Shown here: positions 1-57,157 of the stretch, in pieces
Position numbering within the stretch: position 1 is the first letter of the stretch
How the letters are laid out: every line of letters starts with the position of its first letter
IMG/VR virus record: IMGVR_UViG_3300044568_003873
Location: 1 to 64,000 of that record
DNA from: a virus
Strand: one strand, 5' to 3'
Length of the DNA: 64,000 bases
Made by a program: the position numbers and the translations under genes
Notes under the pieces: generated by a model
Database searches by the model: none
What the model was told of the DNA's origin: nothing
Seen by the model: the letters and a program-made list of their open reading frames with translations, nothing else

Positions 1-1573
1 TACTTCCTGAAGTTCCGCTAGATCCTGATGTTCCGCTAGATCCTGAAGAACCTGAAGTTCCTGAAGATCCACTACTTCCTGATGTTCCGCTAGATCCTGA
101 AGAACCTGATGTCCCTGAAGATCCACTACTTCCTGATGTACCACTTGACCCTGATGTTCCTGAAGATCCACTACTCCCTGATGTTCCGCTTGATCCTGAA
201 GACCCTGAGGTTCCACTACTTCCTGAAGTACCACTTGAACCCGATGTTCCTGAGGATCCACTACTTCCTGAAGTTCCGCTTGACCCTGAAGAACCAGATG
301 TTCCACTAGATCCTGACGTTCCACTGGATCCCGATGTTCCAGAAGATCCACTACTTCCTGAAGTCCCACTAGATCCTGAAGTTCCACTAGATCCCGAAGA
401 ACCTGAAGTTCCACTGGATCCTGAAGAACCTGAAGTTCCCGAAGAACCTGATGTCCCACTTGACCCTGAAGTTCCCGAAGAACCTGATGTCCCACTTGAC
501 CCTGAAGTTCCCGAAGAACCTGATGTTCCACTTGATCCTGAAGTTCCCGAAGAACCTGATGTTCCACTTGATCCTGAAGTTCCCGAAGAACCTGATGTCC
601 CACTTGACCCTGAAGTTCCCGAAGAACCTGATGTTCCACTTGATCCTGACGATCCTGATGTACCACTCGATCCACTAGAACCTGATGTTCCACTTGAACC
701 CGAAGATCCTGATGTACCACTCGATCCACTACTCCCTGATGTTCCACTTGAACCTGATGAACCTGATGTGCCGCTAGATCCACTACTTCCTGATGTTCCA
801 CTCGAACCTGAAGATCCACTACTTCCTGATGTTCCACTCGAACCTGAAGATCCTGATGTACCACTCGAACCTGAAGATCCTGATGTACCACTTGAACCAG
901 ATGATCCTGATGTCCCACTTGACCCGCTAGATCCCGAAGTACCACTTGATCCTGAAGAACCTGAAGTTCCACTACTTCCTGAAGTTCCACTTGACCCTGA
1001 TGTCCCTGAAGAACCACTACTTCCTGACGTACCGCTAGATCCTGATGTTCCTGAAGATCCACTACTTCCTGAAGTACCACTTGACCCTGAAGAACCTGAA
1101 GTACCGCTAGATCCTGAGGTTCCTGAAGAACCACTACTTCCTGAAGTACCACTTGATCCTGAAGAACCTGAAGTTCCACTAGATCCTGATGTTCCAGAAG
1201 ATCCACTACTTCCTGATGTACCGCTTGATCCTGAAGAACCTGATGTTCCGCTTGATCCTGAAGAACCTGATGTTCCAGAAGATCCACTTGACCCTGAAGA
1301 AACATCAATTGTCTTGATAACTAAATCCAAGTCAGTAATACCAGTCCAGTACCAATATTCTGTGACCCCACTTTCAACAGTCAAATATCTCGGATAATCA
1401 TTTGGACCCTCCTGAGTTGTTGTTCCTGTAATTATACCAACGGTTAATCCTAAATACCTATTCGCATATAGTATACTATTGTTTGCTTCTGTAACACTTG
1501 TATACGGACCATATCGTTCATCTAACGGTTTGGGTGAAAAGGTTTCTAAATTATCGTTTAATATAATAGCCAT
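1..1573 (-). CDS. Gly-Ser/Thr-Ser (collagen-like) repeat protein, partial
   Basis: This frame is open from an ATG at 1573 to the left edge (524 codons in the window, no stop), so the C-terminus is missing. The first ~90 residues are unique and begin MAIILNDNLETFSPK; they look like a virion-attachment domain. From about residue 94 to the edge the protein is an almost perfect G-X-Y array in which X and Y are nearly always Ser or Thr (GSS and GTS triplets), with no proline. Such arrays form fibrous stalks in phage tail fibres; a collagen-type triple helix is possible but unproven without Pro. The ATG lies 1 nt after the stop of the upstream gene (1575), so the two are co-transcribed. The plus-strand proline-rich frames here are shadows. 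The fibre or adhesin role is inferred from repeat type and neighbours. Confidence 0.85.
   Translation of the reverse strand, partial: MAIILNDNLETFSPKPLDERYGPYTSVTEANNSILYANRYLGLTVGIITGTTTQEGPNDYPRYLTVESGVTEYWYWTGITDLDLVIKTIDVSSGSSGSSGTSGSSGSSGTSGSSGSSGTSGSSGSSGTSGSSGTSGSSGSSGTSGSSGSSGTSGSSGTSGSSGSSGTSGSSGSSGTSGSSGTSGSSGSSGTSGSSGTSGSSGTSGSSGSSGTSGSSGSSGTSGSSGSSGTSGSSGSSGTSGSSGSSGTSGSSGSSGSSGTSGSSGSSGTSGSSGSSGTSGSSGSSGTSGSSGSSGTSGSSGSSGTSGSSGSSGTSGSSGTSGSSGTSGSSGTSGSSGTSGSSGTSGSSGTSGSSGTSGSSGTSGSSGTSGSSGTSGSSGTSGSSGSSGTSGSSGSSGTSGSSGTSGSSGSSGTSGSSGTSGSSGTSGSSGSSGTSGSSGSSGTSGSSGTSGSSGTSGSSGSSGTSGSSGSSGTSGSSGTSGSSGSSGTSGSSGSSGTSGSSGSSGTSGSSGSSGTSGSSGTSGS
432..645. repeat. 36-nt tandem repeat, about five copies
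   Basis: Five consecutive 36-nt units start at about 462, 498, 534, 570 and 606, preceded by a partial copy. They differ only at a few third-codon positions (for example gacccc/gatcct variants). They sit inside the Gly-Ser/Thr-Ser array and each adds 12 residues (four G-X-Y triplets). The near-identity indicates recent expansion by slippage or unequal recombination. Confidence 0.8.
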
Positions 1574-23087: not shown

Positions 23088-23672
23088 CTAAAACTCCTGA
23101 TTCCTCTTTTTCCTTTCATACTCAAGCTCATACTCACGCTTAGCATCACAATCGTAAGACCATTTTTCGGAGTTTTCTTTCATAACGGCATCAAGGTATT
23201 TTTGTGTGGACTCATCAGATTTTGTTCTATGAAATTCATTTTTCATGTTAAATAGGTCTCTTATACACAACACACCTATTATTGCATCGGCAGGTATTTT
23301 TTCATCAGTAACAATTGCTATTTTGGTATAATCGTGTTGTTTTTCATTATATAATGCTGGGTCATACCACCATTTGTTTTTTAATAATGTTGTATCAATA
23401 ACCACAACCCCTTCAGTATCTCGTTGTGACCATATTTCATGATACCCATTCATGGCGAAAACACTACATGGGTATCTATAGTTAGTCCATTGTGAAGATT
23501 TTGAAGCACAATGAGGTTCAATACCATTATTGTAAATTAATAATGGATCTATAGTGGTGGAATGTAAAATATATTTTTTTAACTCCCCATCAGGTAACGG
23601 AATTGCATCGTCAAAACTATCCCACTTCCAGTTAGCTTCTTCCCGTAATATTCTTTTAATTAATTCTCTCAT
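23088..23672 (-). CDS. leader-tagged small protein, possible ADP-ribosyltransferase fold, 194 aa
   Basis: The first 12 residues, MRELIKRILREE, are the leader shared with four other genes here. It ends in L-R-E, which fits the (I/L)-x-E consensus of T4-type prohead protease sites. The body has a layout seen in ADP-ribosyltransferase/KptA-like folds: a short strand with histidine (YILHSTTIDPLLIYNNGIEP), S-x-x-x-VFAMNG, and a later VVVIDTTLL / IAIVTDEKIPADAIIGV segment. That fold call is weak. If right, the protein would parallel T4 Alt, an ADP-ribosyltransferase packaged in the head and injected with DNA. The C-terminus is charged. The flanks are repeats shared with the next gene upstream, so it looks like an inserted cassette. 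Confidence 0.75.
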   Translation of the reverse strand: MRELIKRILREEANWKWDSFDDAIPLPDGELKKYILHSTTIDPLLIYNNGIEPHCASKSSQWTNYRYPCSVFAMNGYHEIWSQRDTEGVVVIDTTLLKNKWWYDPALYNEKQHDYTKIAIVTDEKIPADAIIGVLCIRDLFNMKNEFHRTKSDESTQKYLDAVMKENSEKWSYDCDAKREYELEYERKKRNQEF

Positions 23673-23753: not shown

Positions 23754-24144
23754 CATTAGTCCAAAAAGAATTATTCCTATCCATATATTGATACAACAGA
23801 AATATAGACGATATTCTATGTGCCCCATCTTGTATCTTATCATCTATAACTACAATAGGTGGTAAGATTTCCAAAGATTGAGGATTATTCTTCATATAGT
23901 TAGCATACTCTATTACCTTTTTTGTTACACCCCATGAATAATCTTTATTCATTATATCTTCCACAACTTCTTTATAATATGGTATATCTTTTATTCTTCC
24001 ATCCAAAATTTCATCTATGGTAAGATAATCTACTCTACAATCCATATTATCTTTTTGTTCTTGTGATATTGGTTCACCTGATGATTCACCTGGTTGTGGA
24101 ACATTAAATTCTTCCTTTAATATTCTTTTAATTAATTGTCTCAT
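23722..24144 (-). CDS. leader-tagged ParB/sulfiredoxin-like protein, 140 aa
   Basis: It begins MRQLIKRILKEE, the shared leader, with a possible L-K-E cleavage site, then a Pro/Ser/Gly/Glu linker. Near residues 93-117 it has PPIVVIDDKIQDGAHRISSI, matching the D-G-x-H-R nucleotide-binding motif of the ParB/Srx fold (ParB-like CTPases and nucleases, sulfiredoxin). The length fits one such domain. ParB-fold proteins in phages include DNA-modifying and nuclease enzymes; the substrate here cannot be read from sequence. Its 3' end is duplicated beyond the next gene. Promoter motif at 24150, terminator at 23691-23719: a self-contained unit. Confidence 0.8.
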   Translation of the reverse strand: MRQLIKRILKEEFNVPQPGESSGEPISQEQKDNMDCRVDYLTIDEILDGRIKDIPYYKEVVEDIMNKDYSWGVTKKVIEYANYMKNNPQSLEILPPIVVIDDKIQDGAHRISSIFLLYQYMDRNNSFWTNVKLKVEFCYT

Positions 24145-31580: not shown

Positions 31581-32432
31581 TTAGAATGGAAGTTCCGCCG
31601 AGGGAAGTTCGTTGTGTTGTGGATCAAGGTCACTTTCTTCATCTGTGGTTCCTCCACCACCGAACTCAGATGTTCCTTCTTCACCATACACATATTTGCC
31701 CGTTGCGTTGTCCCAACGTGGGGTCTCTCCACGAGAGATTGCCTCAAGATATTCATAAGGCTTCTTCGAGTACACATCCTCCCAAGTCAATTCGTCAGCA
31801 AGCCACTCTTCTTGTTGTTTCTTGTCTGTAGCCAAAGGAGATGGGTCGTCGTGCATTATGGATTGAATTGTGGTATATTCTTTTCCATTTGGGGATTTAG
31901 ACTTTGTGAGGGTGATGATGAGGTCTCGTCCTTTGGTTGGGTCGGTGACATCACCTTTTTCACGCCAAATCGGAATGATCTTATCCAACACACCTTCGTT
32001 CTTATAGTTGTGTTTGAAACGCCAGAATTTTACACCATCCTCTTCAGCATCACGGTCAATTACCTTTACAATGTAGAATTTACGAGACCGATATTGACTT
32101 GCAAGTTCTTTGTCTTGAGCTTTACCCGTAGACATAAGTTCGTCATATAGGTCATTCAACGGTGAAGGTTCGTTGTCATTCTTTCCTGGATCATAGAGCT
32201 TAAGCCATTGTTTGTTAACCTGTACTTCGTGGAACCAAACTTCCTTAAATGGTGAAGAATTGTCGGGAGTTGGTAGAATACGAATTCGCTTCCGTCCTGA
32301 AGTTTCTCCTTGCAAAAGGATAGTTGTGAAATACTTCTTCAATCGATCTTCACGATCCATTGAGTTACCATTACCGGTTGGTTTGGTGTTTTTTTCGTAC
32401 TGAGCCAGTACCGCGTCTAAAGATGTTGCCAT
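31581..32432 (-). CDS. gp32: single-stranded DNA-binding protein, gp32-like
   Basis: Coats single-stranded DNA and organises the replisome. The N-terminus is basic with a T4-like body (RKRIRILPTPDNSSPFKEVW, then KFYIVKVIDRDAEEDGVKFW, about residues 45-150). The C-terminus has a Gly-rich linker (FGGGGTTDEESD) and an acidic tail ending LPSAELPF, the typical protein-recruitment tail. The protein has no cysteine at all, so the zinc site of T4 gp32 (His and three Cys) is absent. 283 aa against 301 in T4. It is the first gene of the replication operon, behind a Bacteroidota-type promoter candidate, and is followed by an attenuator. Confidence 0.92.
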   Translation of the reverse strand: MATSLDAVLAQYEKNTKPTGNGNSMDREDRLKKYFTTILLQGETSGRKRIRILPTPDNSSPFKEVWFHEVQVNKQWLKLYDPGKNDNEPSPLNDLYDELMSTGKAQDKELASQYRSRKFYIVKVIDRDAEEDGVKFWRFKHNYKNEGVLDKIIPIWREKGDVTDPTKGRDLIITLTKSKSPNGKEYTTIQSIMHDDPSPLATDKKQQEEWLADELTWEDVYSKKPYEYLEAISRGETPRWDNATGKYVYGEEGTSEFGGGGTTDEESDLDPQHNELPSAELPF

Positions 32433-32456
32433 AATGTGTTAATTAAAAGGTTTGAT

Positions 32457-32488
32457 AAAAATTAGATTTAAAGTTTCGTATTGTCAAA
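32457..32488 (-). promoter_or_regulatory. Bacteroidota-type promoter for the gp32-nrdA operon
   Basis: On the minus strand TTTG (32488-32485) is followed after 20 nt by TAATTTTT (32464-32457), close to the Bacteroidota consensus TTTG-N19-21-TAnnTTTG. It lies 24 nt before the gp32 ATG and immediately after the upstream terminator. No TATTTAT motif is present here, which fits early or middle expression by host RNA polymerase. Confidence 0.55.
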
Positions 32489-32489
32489 T

Positions 32490-32523
32490 AAAAAAAGGGG
32501 TCTTGGATTTTACCGCTGACCCC
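32490..32523 (-). terminator. terminator after the 220-aa gene
   Basis: Minus-strand RNA: GGGGUC - 15-nt loop - GACCCC followed by U7. It separates the structural transcript (33442 to 32552) from the gp32 promoter. Confidence 0.8.
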
Positions 32524-32551
32524 TTAATAATAATTATAAAATTGTTTTAAA

Positions 32552-33214
32552 TCAATATCTGTTCAAAGGTAAACTCTCGTCATATACATTAAATGATTTC
32601 TTAATTGTACTAGCATCGTATCCTGTTACTTCGTCATCTGTTAAAACATATTCGTTTTTACCTGAAGCCTCCATCTCATCCTGTTTTACGTCAAAAAAGT
32701 CGGTAAGTTTTTGACTATAGGGATAAGAGTCCAAGGATCTTAATTCTAATTTCTCTTCAGGAGTTTTTTGTCTGTATTTTTCAAACTTAACTTCCAAACT
32801 ATCTACCTTTTGTAAAATTTTGTCCATTTCAGATAGTTTATCCTGTAAGTCATTCAATTGTGAAAGAATCTGATCTGTCATTTCAGTTTGCTTTGACAAA
32901 ATATCATCTTGTTTTGTAACCAAATCGGTAATATCTAATTCTTCAGTACCACCATCTGTTGTTTCTGTAGTGTCGGTGACATCGGTAGTTTCAGTATCAC
33001 CCACTTTCTCAACATCAGGATCTGTTGCCGTATCAATTGGGGTTGGTTCTGTACCCGTATCTGCCGCCGGTAATGTCTCAGCACCCGCATCTGCTGCTGG
33101 TAATTCCTCAGCACCCACATCAGGCACCTCACCAGCCAATTCTTGTTCTACAATATATTTGTTGATTTGACGATATCTTTTGATTTCTTCTAAAATTCTT
33201 TTTTCCGCTGACAT
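32552..33214 (-). CDS. acidic coiled-coil protein, possible prohead-core/virion component, 220 aa
   Basis: Unrecognised family. The N-terminus (MSAEKRILEEIKRYRQINKY, then IVEQELAGE) is helical and contains several I/L-x-E sites like those cut during T4-type head maturation. Residues ~35-95 are a low-complexity acidic stretch of Ala, Asp, Glu, Pro and Thr with repeats (EELPAADAGAETLPAADTGT). Residues ~100-150 form a predicted coiled coil (KQTEMTDQILSQLNDLQDKL). The C-terminus is mixed. Scaffold or core proteins often look like this, but other explanations are open. Co-transcribed with the 74-aa gene (3-nt gap) from the motif at 33452. Confidence 0.65.
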   Translation of the reverse strand: MSAEKRILEEIKRYRQINKYIVEQELAGEVPDVGAEELPAADAGAETLPAADTGTEPTPIDTATDPDVEKVGDTETTDVTDTTETTDGGTEELDITDLVTKQDDILSKQTEMTDQILSQLNDLQDKLSEMDKILQKVDSLEVKFEKYRQKTPEEKLELRSLDSYPYSQKLTDFFDVKQDEMEASGKNEYVLTDDEVTGYDASTIKKSFNVYDESLPLNRY

Positions 33215-46489: not shown

Positions 46490-47353
46490 CTATTTTATTT
46501 CTTTTTTTTGTCCTCCATGTGTTGCAAAAACTTTTACTGGACTCTCTTCTGGATATTCTTTTTCTAGAAATCCTTTGATTTTTTCTATATTTCTAAGATC
46601 GTCATCAGAAAATCCTATTTGGGGTACAAAAAAATTCTTTACATCATTCTTGAAAAATGCTCTGTTGTTTAATTTTGCAGACATTTCTTTTACATATCCT
46701 ATGAATTCTCTTAATGCATTTATTTTACCTTGTTCCGGATTTTGAGCACTTCCCTCTCCATATGTCACTGGATAAAATTTACACAAATTAAGGTATTCGT
46801 CTATCATTTGGGTTTTTGAAGAGTTTGTAACTTCACCTGTTAATTCACGATATTTTTTTAAATTTTCGTAACAAACATTTCCATTCAAACCATTGTAGTT
46901 CATCAGAAGATAATTTTTACAAGCTTCTCGGATCGCTTTTGGTGAGTGACCTCTTGCTGTAATAATTGCAAATATAGATCCTCCATTTAAACACTCTACA
47001 AAGTCGTTCCACGACGGACCGGGAGGTGCGGTAAGTGCATCAATTACAAATTGTTTATCACCAGCAACTGAGAAATGTCTAAAAGGATCTTTTGCAAAAC
47101 CAACAATAGTGAGTCCGTGATAAATAAAGGGTTCTTTTCCGATTTGTTCACGGTATTTTGCAAAATCTTCACTACCCATACCTACCTCTCTATTGTCATC
47201 AGATAAAACCAATATTTTGGTCGGCATATAAACAATATTGTCGTCCCAATCAAAAGCGTAATACTTTGAATCAGGGGTCAAGTCTTCATCAAAACCTTCA
47301 GAGAGGACTTTTTCCTCTACATATTCTGATATTATTTTTCGTAGTAGTTTCAT
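46490..47353 (-). CDS. HAD-superfamily phosphatase-like protein with leader-like N-terminus, 287 aa
   Basis: HAD motif I is YYAFDWDDNIVYMPT (nucleophile and acid/base Asp in D-x-D, about residues 34-36). Motif II is the Thr in FAIITARGHSPKAI, and an acidic motif III/IV candidate is GFSDDDLRNI near residue 245. It probably dephosphorylates a nucleotide, nucleic-acid end or protein; substrate unknown. The first 20 residues, MKLLRKIISEYVEEKVLSEG, look like a divergent version of the shared leader with an L-S-E site, hinting at capsid packaging. The gene sits between tube and sheath, an odd place for an enzyme, and follows the sheath terminator with no motif of its own. Confidence 0.78.
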   Translation of the reverse strand: MKLLRKIISEYVEEKVLSEGFDEDLTPDSKYYAFDWDDNIVYMPTKILVLSDDNREVGMGSEDFAKYREQIGKEPFIYHGLTIVGFAKDPFRHFSVAGDKQFVIDALTAPPGPSWNDFVECLNGGSIFAIITARGHSPKAIREACKNYLLMNYNGLNGNVCYENLKKYRELTGEVTNSSKTQMIDEYLNLCKFYPVTYGEGSAQNPEQGKINALREFIGYVKEMSAKLNNRAFFKNDVKNFFVPQIGFSDDDLRNIEKIKGFLEKEYPEESPVKVFATHGGQKKEIK

Positions 47354-52454: not shown

Positions 52455-52928
52455 TTATTCGGGTAGTGGTACTTGGTCGAAATAATGATATAGTTCCTCA
52501 ACTTTAAGTTTCCCTGACTTTATTCGTTCAAGAATTGGTTCAATAAGTTTTGAATTAACCCTTAAAGCACCTTCAACATATTCCAAACTATCTAACGATG
52601 TGATTGAAGTTCCACGAATATCCATATTACCATACACACGTTTTAAATTATTTAAACTTTTTAAATCTTTAACCCTATAAAGATCAAGTTCACCATAAAC
52701 ATCAACCAAATTATTTAAATATTTTAGGTCTTCAGGGTTATCAAAAAGAGTTACAAGAATTTTTCTGTTGAAAAAATCTAAATCATCATTAAATGACCAT
52801 TTTTTATGACCGTATTTTCTCAAAAAATTAAGTAATCCTTCTTCACCATCAAGAAAAATATTAAAACCCGGTATTACCAATACCTCTTCTGTTTCCTCTT
52901 TTAAAATTTTTTTGATTAAGTCTTTCAT
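52455..52928 (-). CDS. leader-tagged leucine-rich-repeat-like protein, 157 aa
   Basis: Begins MKDLIKKILKEE (shared leader, L-K-E site). After residue 60 it has three or four short leucine-rich units of about 20 residues: DLKYLNNLVDVYGELDLYRV, then D-L-K-S-L-N-N-L-x-x-V-x-G-x-M-D-I-R-G-T-S-I, then S-L-D-S-L-E-Y-V-x-G-A-L-R-V. These are like the receptor-L / LRR solenoids used for protein binding. Probably a small binding protein delivered with the genome; target unknown. ATG overlaps the stop of... the next upstream tagged gene by 4 nt (ATGA), so the three tagged genes form one transcript. Confidence 0.75.
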   Translation of the reverse strand: MKDLIKKILKEETEEVLVIPGFNIFLDGEEGLLNFLRKYGHKKWSFNDDLDFFNRKILVTLFDNPEDLKYLNNLVDVYGELDLYRVKDLKSLNNLKRVYGNMDIRGTSITSLDSLEYVEGALRVNSKLIEPILERIKSGKLKVEELYHYFDQVPLPE

Positions 52929-53332
52929 TGTAGTTCAATTCCTGTAATGAGAACGTCCTCCACCTCGGGATTCATATCGGTGTAAATCATTCGTATTGTT
53001 GACACTTTTCTTCTTAGAAAGTCCTCCACCCACATCGTTATAAGTTGTTCAAATACAGATTTGTCCTCCTTAAACCAAATTAAAAAATTTTCGTAAAGTT
53101 GAGTGTTATACCAAAGTTTTCCGAACCTTTTAAATCCTATAATCCATCCTTTAGTGTCTGGATTTATAATCCAAATGGATTCAGGATTGTATTCAAATCT
53201 ATTTTCAGGAGTATCTACATAAATGTTATAACCCTCCATTTCCATCTCCATGAAAGTATAGAATGCTCTGATCAAAGACGGTTTGATATCCGATGTTTCC
53301 TCTTTTAATATTTTCTTGATTAGGTCTTTCAT
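52925..53332 (-). CDS. leader-tagged protein, paralog of the next gene upstream, 135 aa
   Basis: MKDLIKKILKEETSD leader, then a body nearly collinear with the 157-aa protein at 53329-53802 (IKPSLIRAFYTFMEMEMEGY / LKPALIKAFYGFMEMETQGY and PESIWIINPDTKGWIIGFKR / PESIWIINPKTKGWIIGLLK). The two arose by tandem duplication. Aromatic-rich alpha/beta body, no recognised enzyme motif. The C-terminus keeps one degenerate copy of the V-E-D-V-L repeat that is tandemly repeated in the paralog. Overlaps both neighbours by 4 nt. Confidence 0.75.
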   Translation of the reverse strand: MKDLIKKILKEETSDIKPSLIRAFYTFMEMEMEGYNIYVDTPENRFEYNPESIWIINPDTKGWIIGFKRFGKLWYNTQLYENFLIWFKEDKSVFEQLITMWVEDFLRRKVSTIRMIYTDMNPEVEDVLITGIELQ

Positions 53333-53802
53333 GATATTTTAATTCCTTTTTTGAGAACGTCTTCCACCCGGTCGTCCCCTGGAGCGAAGTGAAACCGTGT
53401 TGTTAATATCCCTCTTTTGAGAACGTCCCCCACCGAACGGATCGCTGCCGGCATTGGGACCGGAATTGTTAATACCCCTCTTTTGAGAACGTCCTCCACC
53501 CACATCCTTATAAGTTGTTCAAATACAGAACGTTCCTCATTAAACCAATTTAAAAAATTGTCGTAAAGTGGGCCATAATACCAAAGTTTTCCTGATTTTA
53601 GTAATCCTATAATCCATCCTTTGGTCTTTGGATTGATGATCCAAATGGACTCAGGATTGTATCTAAATCTGTTTTCAGGAATATCAACATAAATCTCATA
53701 ACCTTGTGTCTCCATTTCCATGAAACCATAGAATGCTTTAATCAATGCGGGTTTGAGATCTGATGTTTCCTCTTTTAATATTTTTTTGATCAGGTCTTTC
53801 AT
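53329..53802 (-). CDS. leader-tagged protein with C-terminal 22-aa repeats, 157 aa
   Basis: First gene of the tagged trio. Leader MKDLIKKILKEETSD, common body of ~95 residues shared with the 135-aa paralog, then a C-terminal extension of 22-residue repeats: VEDVLKRGVLTI..., VGDVLKRGILTT..., VEDVLKKGIKIS. The segments between the conserved cores are unusually GC-rich for this genome (for example 53369-53399 and 53436-53465). Function unknown; the leader suggests capsid packaging. TATTTAT motif 7 nt upstream of the ATG. Confidence 0.75.
   Translation of the reverse strand: MKDLIKKILKEETSDLKPALIKAFYGFMEMETQGYEIYVDIPENRFRYNPESIWIINPKTKGWIIGLLKSGKLWYYGPLYDNFLNWFNEERSVFEQLIRMWVEDVLKRGVLTIPVPMPAAIRSVGDVLKRGILTTRFHFAPGDDRVEDVLKKGIKIS
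53345..53503. repeat. 66-nt tandem repeat, three copies, inside a tagged gene
   Basis: The core GAGAACGTC starts at 53353, 53419 and 53485, exactly 66 nt apart (22 codons). The core and ~20 flanking bases are conserved; the middle of each unit varies. A related core occurs in the paralog near 52950. Confidence 0.8.
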
Positions 53803-53809
53803 ATTATTG

Positions 53810-53816
53810 ATAAATA
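53810..53816 (-). promoter_or_regulatory. late-type TATTTAT motif
   Basis: Coding-strand GTGTATTTATCAATA, 7 nt before the ATG at 53802. It lies in the 43-bp divergent gap to the SNF2 gene. Confidence 0.5.
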
Positions 53817-55630: not shown

Positions 55631-57157
55631 ATGTCTATTGAAACCAAAACCGATGTTTTAAAAAACCAAATCATCTTAGCCGAACAGAAAGACCCACTGT
55701 TAACAGAAATGAAATCCATTGGGATTGAGAATTTACCTTACAGTTACGCATCTTTAAGGAAGTTTATTGATCCTGAGACTATGAATGTTCACTACAACAA
55801 ACATTATAAGGGTTATGTAAAGAACCTAAACTCCGCATTGAAGAAGTTAGGTGAAGACGATGTTGATCTTGAAAAGATTGTAAAAAATATATCAAGATAT
55901 AATACAACAGTAAGAAATAACGCAGGGGGTGCCTTCAACCACGCTTTGTTTTGGAAAATGTTAACACCCGAAAAACAGAATATTCACGGAGAAATTTTGA
56001 AAAGGATCAGAAAAGACTTCGGATCTTATGAAAATTTCAAAAACAAGTTTGTAAGCACCGCAACAAGAAAATTTGGATCAGGGTGGTGTTGGCTTGTTCT
56101 CACCAAAAGAAACACCTTGAAGATTATCTGCACCTCCAACCAAGATAATCCCCTTATGAATATCATCAAAAATGGTGGTTATCCACTTCTTGGGTTGGAT
56201 CTTTGGGAACACGCATATTATCTCAAATACAAAAATAAAAGAGATGAATATGTTCAAAACTTTTGGAAGGTAGTGAACTGGGAGTTTGTAAATAAGTTAT
56301 ACAACGACCAAATTAACAGAGAAAAGAAAGAAGAACCCAAAGAACAGATCAAAGAATCAAGAATTTTGACTGAACAAGACTCGGTTGATCCTTGTAAAGG
56401 AACAAGATTTAAAATGGTGGTTTACAACAGATTGTCAAGAAACCAAAAGTTGAACTACTCCAAACTTATCTTTGATGTTTTTAGACACAAGTACTCCTCC
56501 AATTGGAAAGAGACCGATAGATCACAAGGTATTGAGTCAGGGTTTTATGATATAGAACAACCCGGAAGATCCGTGTTGAGTTATGCAAACACGAACTACA
56601 CCCTTATGTGTTTTCTTGTTCTTATGATGAACAAAATCGCAAAAAAGAAGGGGTGGGATAATTTAAATCTAAAATCTGAGGACAACGCAACCTTTGATAA
56701 AAATTTCAACAGATTTTTGGGGATGTTAAAATCCTTCAAAGATGAAATTACCCAAGATTGGGTGATGGAAAAGATACTTGATGTTTTAAAGAAACAACAC
56801 GAAAAAGGTCAGGCAACAGAAAATAGATTCAAAAAGGTGTGTGAAGAAAAAAGTAACGGAAAAGTCACCGTTGAACTTGTAAGTGGTCTTGGAAATAGAG
56901 AAGATTTTTATGGAATTGACGGATATATAGACTTCGGAGACGGAAAGAAGTCCATTCAGATCAAACCTTTTGACGGATATCATATTGATGAAGAAGGTTA
57001 TTATGTTATAGATAAAACCGCAGCGGTAAAAAAATATAACACAGATCTGATGGGATTTATTTCAAGAAGAGATGAGGTTTTAATCTTCAAAACCAACAAT
57101 ATGGATATTTCAACAGGTAAATATAGGTTCCCAGAAGAAAATAAGGTTGAACTATAA
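55631..57157 (+). CDS. Mn-type superoxide dismutase fused to a possible nuclease domain, 508 aa
   Basis: Residues ~30-225 are a complete Fe/Mn superoxide dismutase that closely follows bacterial SodA: ligands His54 (MNVHYNKHY), His104 (NNAGGAFNHALFW), Asp190 and His194 (GLDLWEHAYYL), plus FGSGWCWLVL. G-G at 99-100 and Gln171 (SNQDNPLM) are the Mn-type second-sphere arrangement. A linker with L-T-E (246-248) leads to a C-terminal ~250-residue domain. There D430 (YGIDGYIDF) and Q443-I-K445 (SIQIKPF) resemble a PD-(D/E)XK nuclease core; this part is tentative. The N-terminal extension carries L-A-E (16-18) and L-T-E (24-26). If a prohead protease cuts these, the halves would separate inside the capsid. 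SOD identity is firm. Confidence 0.93.
   Translation: MSIETKTDVLKNQIILAEQKDPLLTEMKSIGIENLPYSYASLRKFIDPETMNVHYNKHYKGYVKNLNSALKKLGEDDVDLEKIVKNISRYNTTVRNNAGGAFNHALFWKMLTPEKQNIHGEILKRIRKDFGSYENFKNKFVSTATRKFGSGWCWLVLTKRNTLKIICTSNQDNPLMNIIKNGGYPLLGLDLWEHAYYLKYKNKRDEYVQNFWKVVNWEFVNKLYNDQINREKKEEPKEQIKESRILTEQDSVDPCKGTRFKMVVYNRLSRNQKLNYSKLIFDVFRHKYSSNWKETDRSQGIESGFYDIEQPGRSVLSYANTNYTLMCFLVLMMNKIAKKKGWDNLNLKSEDNATFDKNFNRFLGMLKSFKDEITQDWVMEKILDVLKKQHEKGQATENRFKKVCEEKSNGKVTVELVSGLGNREDFYGIDGYIDFGDGKKSIQIKPFDGYHIDEEGYYVIDKTAAVKKYNTDLMGFISRRDEVLIFKTNNMDISTGKYRFPEENKVEL

Follow-up and report, generated by a model that had tools for sequence, protein, structure and literature searches.

A short N-terminal leader on unrelated proteins of uncultured T4-like phages as a likely capsid-targeting propeptide

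Tagged genes in the window

The window, the whole stretch of 64,000 nucleotides analysed here, corresponds to bases 1-64000 of the 87,977-base virus record IMGVR_UViG_3300044568_003873. Five open reading frames (ORFs) within it begin with M-K/R-x-L-I-K-K/R-I-L-K/R-E-E and then diverge (Table 1), and a six-frame regex search for leader starts recovered exactly these five. A 12-residue leader on at least five unrelated small proteins had been proposed for this DNA in the original prediction. The shared N-terminal tag is borne out at all five genes, but the number of unrelated bodies and the length of the tag are not. Since the genes at 52925 and 53329 are paralogues with 70% identity, the five tagged genes represent four body families. 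In addition, leaders obtained without the search pattern tolerate varied residues at position 12, and thus the functional unit seems to span 11 residues, up to E11.

Table 1. Leaders, tagged genes, candidate cargo and upstream boxes, with positions in the window unless stated otherwise; an arrow marks the predicted cut.
Feature	Position	Strand	Remark
Leader MRELIKRILREE	start 23672	-	six-frame regex
Leader MRQLIKRILKEE	start 24144	-	six-frame regex
Leader MKDLIKKILKEE	starts 52928, 53332, 53802	-	six-frame regex
Tagged gene, 194 aa	23088..23672	-	leader MRELIKRILRE↓E at 23640-23672
Tagged gene, 140 aa	23722..24144	-	leader MRQLIKRILKE↓E at 24112-24144
Tagged gene, 157 aa, LRR-like body	52455..52928	-	leader MKDLIKKILKE↓E at 52896-52928
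Tagged gene, 135 aa	52925..53332	-	leader MKDLIKKILKE↓E at 53300-53332
Tagged gene, 157 aa, paralogue of 52925	53329..53802	-	leader MKDLIKKILKE↓E at 53770-53802
Candidate cargo, HAD-like (DWDDN motif), 287 aa	46490..47353	-	propeptide MKLLRKIISEYVEEKVLSE↓G at 47297-47353
Candidate cargo polyprotein, Fe/Mn superoxide dismutase plus C-terminal part	55631..57157	+	LxE sites flank the dismutase
Candidate cargo	83760, same record beyond the window		MKLLEILKKQIILE↓V
Leader peptide including predicted cut			MKDLIKKILKEETSD; gp23 counterpart ASHLINEAAST
TATTTAT box	53810..53816	-	upstream of tagged gene start 53802
TATTTATA box, examples	3263, 4338, 20617, 23015, 52432	-

The gene at 53329 has an identical copy in the sister record G010. 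The LRR-like body at 52455 matches Recep_L_domain at E 0.0046, which is under the cut-off. An ART fold suggested earlier for the product of 23088 was not confirmed: searches against Pfam, NCBIfam, PHROG and PDB sequences gave nothing above cut-off, and a single-sequence model reached a pLDDT of 35. Because only identical copies of this protein exist in the searched sets, no useful alignment was available for the model. The ParB-like character ascribed to 23722 likewise found no backing, being a resemblance by eye for which family searches returned no match.

Two further candidate cargo genes of the same record, HAD-like 46490 and the gene at 83760, carry other predicted propeptides. In the product of 55631, a superoxide dismutase (SOD) domain occupies residues 33-222 (Pfam Sod_Fe_C, E 7.7e-41; Sod_Fe_N, E 4.3e-22), with ILAE↓Q at 18 and LLTE↓M at 26 before it and ILTE↓Q at 248 after it; the protein may be a head polyprotein from which a virion SOD is released.

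The TATTTATA box occurs 20 times in the window against 6.9 expected, placed 11-14 or 19-23 nt ahead of many start codons, structural genes included; a late promoter or a leaderless-mRNA signal is possible. An incomplete ORF on the minus strand of window 1-1573 has GTSGSSGTSGSS repeats at its end. Stretch L004 (1017-1481; record 83016-83480) encodes a protein with a leader-resembling C-terminus, NEEINRIKKLINYGSK; in T4 Alt the C-terminus is also processed (excerpt of PMC9026906).

Spread, classes and boundary of the leader

A degenerate DNA pattern of the leader matches at least 119 stretches of viral contigs. As a cellular control, the same pattern was run over 257 Gb from 84,980 genomes of bacteria and archaea and returned one stretch, located in a 63,985-base phage contig of a Prochlorococcus single-cell assembly (L189, QCKH01000009.1) that carries two tagged genes. 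The IMG/VR phage record giving L057 is also 63,985 bases long, like this contig; the presence of the contig in a Prochlorococcus assembly may be a host clue or the trace of a co-sorted particle. Among the matches listed, 120 tagged proteins fall into at least 43 unrelated body families (single linkage, E 1e-3).

Specificity was assessed with a seven-residue core, [LIVMF][KRN][KRNSQ][ILV][ILVM][KRNSQ]E, sought in an N-terminal zone defined as the first 32 residues. Across seven clade genomes the core is found in the N-termini of 91 of 1427 ORFs (6.4%; 4 to 31 ORFs per genome), compared with 7 of 5121 interior windows (0.14%) and about 0 of the C-termini. The leader is therefore not a product of chance. 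Pieces of control phages contain the core in 0/58 (T4), 0/96 (Microcystis phage Mel-JY01) and 4/203 (Flavobacterium phage immuto) cases. Interior windows were taken as background in place of a shuffle test of hydrophobic-hydrophobic-x-E, which is weak because shuffled sequences retain the composition of the leader. A tblastn search of the phage collection with a 23-residue leader query gave no match, as is expected at that query length. The expectation that the tag would reveal further cargo genes in related phages thus held, both in the viral stretches and in the ORFs of the clade genomes.

Conservation ends right after Glu11. Because the collecting pattern itself demanded E11-E12, only leaders found independently of the pattern count for this boundary. 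Among 39 such starts, Glu occupies P1 in 37, the two exceptions not being class A leaders, and P1' in the pattern-independent leaders is E, S, Y, T, Q, N, D, V, F or A. A longer leader class of about 22 residues, MKKIIRLTExDLxxLVKKIIKE, ends in the same eight residues as the short leader (L-V/I-K-K-I/V-I-K-E). Searched with a pattern that left both the start codon and the residue following Glu open, the longer class is N-terminal in 40/40 distinct proteins, of which 39 usable bodies form 23 families, and the residue following its Glu is Q, D, E, G, N, S or K. The longer-class leader genes of record G009 sit between the prohead protease, scaffold and major capsid protein genes. A third type, ILTE...RxxLMGLINE, is looser and can be seen in G010, G020 and immuto.

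Homologous bodies also occur under different leaders. The YMFF family bears class A, class B and other leaders, and all 14 variants end in hydrophobic-hydrophobic-x-E. For the HAD-like family of 46490, (I/L)-x-E precedes FDWDDN by 14 residues (five proteins) or 7 residues (two proteins) in 7/7 distinct homologues, the sequences upstream of it being unrelated. Among DHH homologues the leaders differ while (I/L)-x-E↓(S/G)G(I/L)R persists, and a zinc-ribbon module retains (I/L)-x-E beneath differing upstream sequences. By their sequences, then, the leaders appear to behave like exchangeable propeptides.

A DFDW-like motif at most 14 residues past Glu accompanies 14 of 31 leader genes in G009 and 5 of 10 in G008 (L160-L170, L182-L187), against a background of about 0.5%. 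This motif may form another component of the tag.

Prohead protease, capsid protein and cargo

The window record itself has neither an S77 protease nor a gp23 gene. A gp21-type protease, whose absence from the phage would speak against the original prediction, is encoded by the sister record G010, which shares 99.9% identity with the window record across 58,393 bases; this protease (32003-32731) matches PF03420 at E 3.6e-27 and lies in a head module in which terminase, portal, protease, acidic scaffold and gp23 follow one another much as in T4. Among 28 leader-bearing records, PF03420 (Peptidase_S77, the T4 gp21 family) is present in 14 and PF07068 (gp23) in 16, and S77 protease accompanies gp23 in 14/14 of those in which gp23 is intact. 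The aligned proteases keep the His motif (ELNHPE or EADHPE) and the Ser motif (SSRGVG) in 13/13 copies, and the His motif is recognisable in T4 gp21. Neither gp23 nor S77 was seen in G001 (208 kb) and G002 (214 kb) of the same clade, a point that weighs against a capsid-targeting role of the leader. Since some records with neither gene belong to the clade by their baseplate protein, such records are probably incomplete. In G026 (38,833 bases) and G027 (109,290 bases), gp23 appears as short separate pieces and S77 protease was not found; their capsid genes may be split or interrupted.

The gp23 of the clade is homologous to that of T4 (E 7.8e-27). Its pro-region reads KW..LGFL(E/D).L...EN(Q/S)AS-x-L-(I/L)-N-E↓(A/S/T) in 13 relatives, with NKWKPLLEG...ENQ...FLTE↓A as the T4 counterpart and IVSE↓A in immuto. 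The capsid protein of the window phage is accordingly predicted by homology to be cut at L-I-N-E↓A, and the comparison of capsid and leader sites asked for at the outset yields a match.

Tagged cargo mostly lacks a known function, and the proposed arsenal of anti-host effectors gains one good example, an Acb1-like 2H phosphoesterase of relatives. This enzyme is tagged in L201-L205 and untagged in L206-L209 (65% identical), and the start of the untagged form coincides with the predicted mature start of the tagged one. Its two HxT motifs, HTT and H(T/L)T, are invariant, and it matches phrog_755 at E 1.4e-8. In an AlphaFold2 model of L201 (pLDDT 80.8), the body is confident and the leader is a low-confidence short helix detached from it; the fold matches LigT-like enzymes, poxvirus cGAMP PDE, the phosphodiesterase of Burkholderia phage BCSR5 and phage Acb1 (7t27, E 3.7e-4). 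Because its Pfam Acb1 score of 20.4 bits lies below the cut-off of 27, the enzyme is named Acb1-like and not Acb1. Other tagged bodies include P-loop kinase/zeta-toxin-like, LysM, LRR-like and DHH (weak match) proteins.

Interpretation and comparison with known systems

Very probably, the leader is a capsid-targeting propeptide acting in the manner of the CTS on T4 internal proteins (IPs). This reading is favoured because the pattern is viral, with at least 119 stretches there and a single one, itself in a phage contig, in the 257 Gb of cellular sequence; because the tag is N-terminal on many unrelated bodies; and because Glu is conserved at P1 while P1' is free. It also draws support from the S77 protease and gp23 of the same phage, the latter with its matching predicted site, from the retention of (I/L)-x-E by YMFF, DHH, HAD and zinc-ribbon bodies under exchanged leaders, from the untagged Acb1-like start that matches the mature start, and from the position of the longer-class leader genes of G009 in the head module. 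Lastly, hydrophobic residues at P7, P4 and P3 and Glu at P1 match the T4 IPIII residues. In IPIII, residues 4 and 7 govern targeting and residues 8 and 10 processing (excerpt of PMC9026906); counted from the cut, these are P7, P4, P3 and P1, corresponding to I5, I8, L9 and E11 here.

By analogy with T4, we infer that tagged proteins are present in the virion, bind the core, and are trimmed, packaged and injected. Late in infection, the amphipathic helix L-I-K-K-I-L-K would attach them to the scaffold core while the prohead is being assembled. The gp21-type S77 protease, which would also trim the major capsid protein, would then cut the leader after Glu11. The mature cargo would stay in the head, enter the next host with the DNA, and act before phage genes are expressed.

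Some of the likeness among leaders lies at the level of the DNA. Leader codons 8 and 9 of the leader genes in L005-L130 are nearly always ATA TTA despite synonymous alternatives, and unrelated tagged genes differ synonymously less often (0.355) than codon usage would predict (0.478). Common descent of a 5' cassette thus contributes, and the leader probably spreads partly in this form. A TATTTAT box, found also upstream of the S77 protease and scaffold genes in G010, precedes 46% of leader genes, 30% of long genes, 20% of other genes and 4.5% of shuffled upstreams, a distribution that fits late co-expression and by itself is no evidence of a promoter. The near-fixed codons and the enriched box would also suit a leader that is simply a mobile 5' cassette of promoter box and start region, spread by recombination for good late expression, with the peptide incidental. 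This is nonetheless very improbable: the remaining leader codons differ synonymously while the residues stay constant, LIKKILKE, SIRRILRE, LVKKIIKE and ILTE on homologous bodies all end in (I/L)-x-E, conservation stops at Glu11, and the box also stands before many untagged genes. Just as little credence is given to an uncleaved helix for docking or localisation at the membrane, the phage replication compartment or a partner protein. The leader is amphipathic and lysine-rich, and the model shows a short helix detached from the body, as such a helix might be; yet it would leave unexplained why Glu is invariant while the residue after it is free, why the gp23 pro-region ends in the same site, why leader genes lie inside the head module, and why HAD and DHH homologues retain (I/L)-x-E without conserving the helix upstream of it.

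It is also conceivable, though rather unlikely, that the carriers are targeted to the prohead and trimmed as the propeptide reading holds, and that most of them serve head assembly or DNA packaging instead of being injected as effectors. Several tagged families do lie in the head module, and T4 IPs also affect head assembly. However, many cargo genes are distant from that module and differ between relatives, and the cargo resembles 2H phosphoesterase, P-loop kinase/zeta-toxin-like, SOD and DHH proteins, which have no obvious assembly role.

Beyond the capsid-targeting propeptide itself, the balance tips slightly towards a wider proposal, in which interchangeable propeptides form a general head-loading code in a clade of uncultured T4-like phages. 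Each virion would carry tens of effectors, including an anti-CBASS-type cyclic-nucleotide phosphodiesterase, as counter-defence enzymes active at DNA entry. If this is true, reading the code would lead to a catalogue of hundreds of injected phage effectors. The 11-residue signature would turn much of the dark proteome of these uncultured aquatic phages into a testable list of such effectors and predict their exact mature N-termini, and it would suggest that immune-signal-degrading enzymes can be pre-loaded in the capsid.

The nearest cultured relatives by gp23 are Mel-JY01 and immuto, then RM378. At 600 aa, the gp23 of the clade is about 15% longer than that of T4, and a similar excess has been described for Far-T4 gp23 (PMC4360716). 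In gp23, the leader-bearing phages resemble the Far-T4 group, whose predicted hosts are Bacteroidetes (PMC4360716, PMC7198788).

A search of open-access papers brought up no previous description of this leader. The finding of injected proteins through their signal sequence is established in T-even phages (PMC12373910), and IP1-3 of T4 are injected anti-restriction proteins (excerpts of PMC9026906 and PMC12373910). It was a common leader that led to the ip genes: in T4, MKTYQEFIAE↓A heads both ipII and ipIII, whose bodies differ. Cleavage by gp21 obeys the rule L/I-x-E (excerpt of PMC9026906). The leader described here has no computable homology to MKTYQEFIAE, 11 residues being too few for a score. 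Like the CTS of IPI, IPII and IPIII, it belongs to N-terminal leaders of 10-19 residues on unrelated bodies that end in (I/L)-x-E, and it shares with that system a gp21-type S77 protease and the cleavage logic of gp23. It differs in its basic L-I-K-K-I-L-K-E core, its several classes and the number of carriers, which reaches about 30 tagged genes per genome compared with three IPs in T4 and at least 10 reported in related T-evens. T4 Alt, a virion ADP-ribosyltransferase (MELITELFDE), offers a precedent for enzyme cargo that is packaged, processed by gp21 and injected, although the leader sequences differ and no ART was confirmed in the window cargo. In phiKZ and SPN3US, many head proteins are cut after Glu by a gp21-like protease and several are ejected into the host (excerpt of PMC9026906); the phiKZ motif is S/A-x-E, and that excerpt reports no single common portable leader for phiKZ/SPN3US. 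With anti-CBASS Acb1 (T4 57B family, phrog_755), L201 shares the 2H phosphoesterase fold and two invariant HxT motifs, whereas it scores under the Pfam cut-off and bears a predicted capsid-targeting leader. Taken together, these comparisons support a system that is T4 CTS-like in concept and different in sequence, with several classes of leader and many more carriers.
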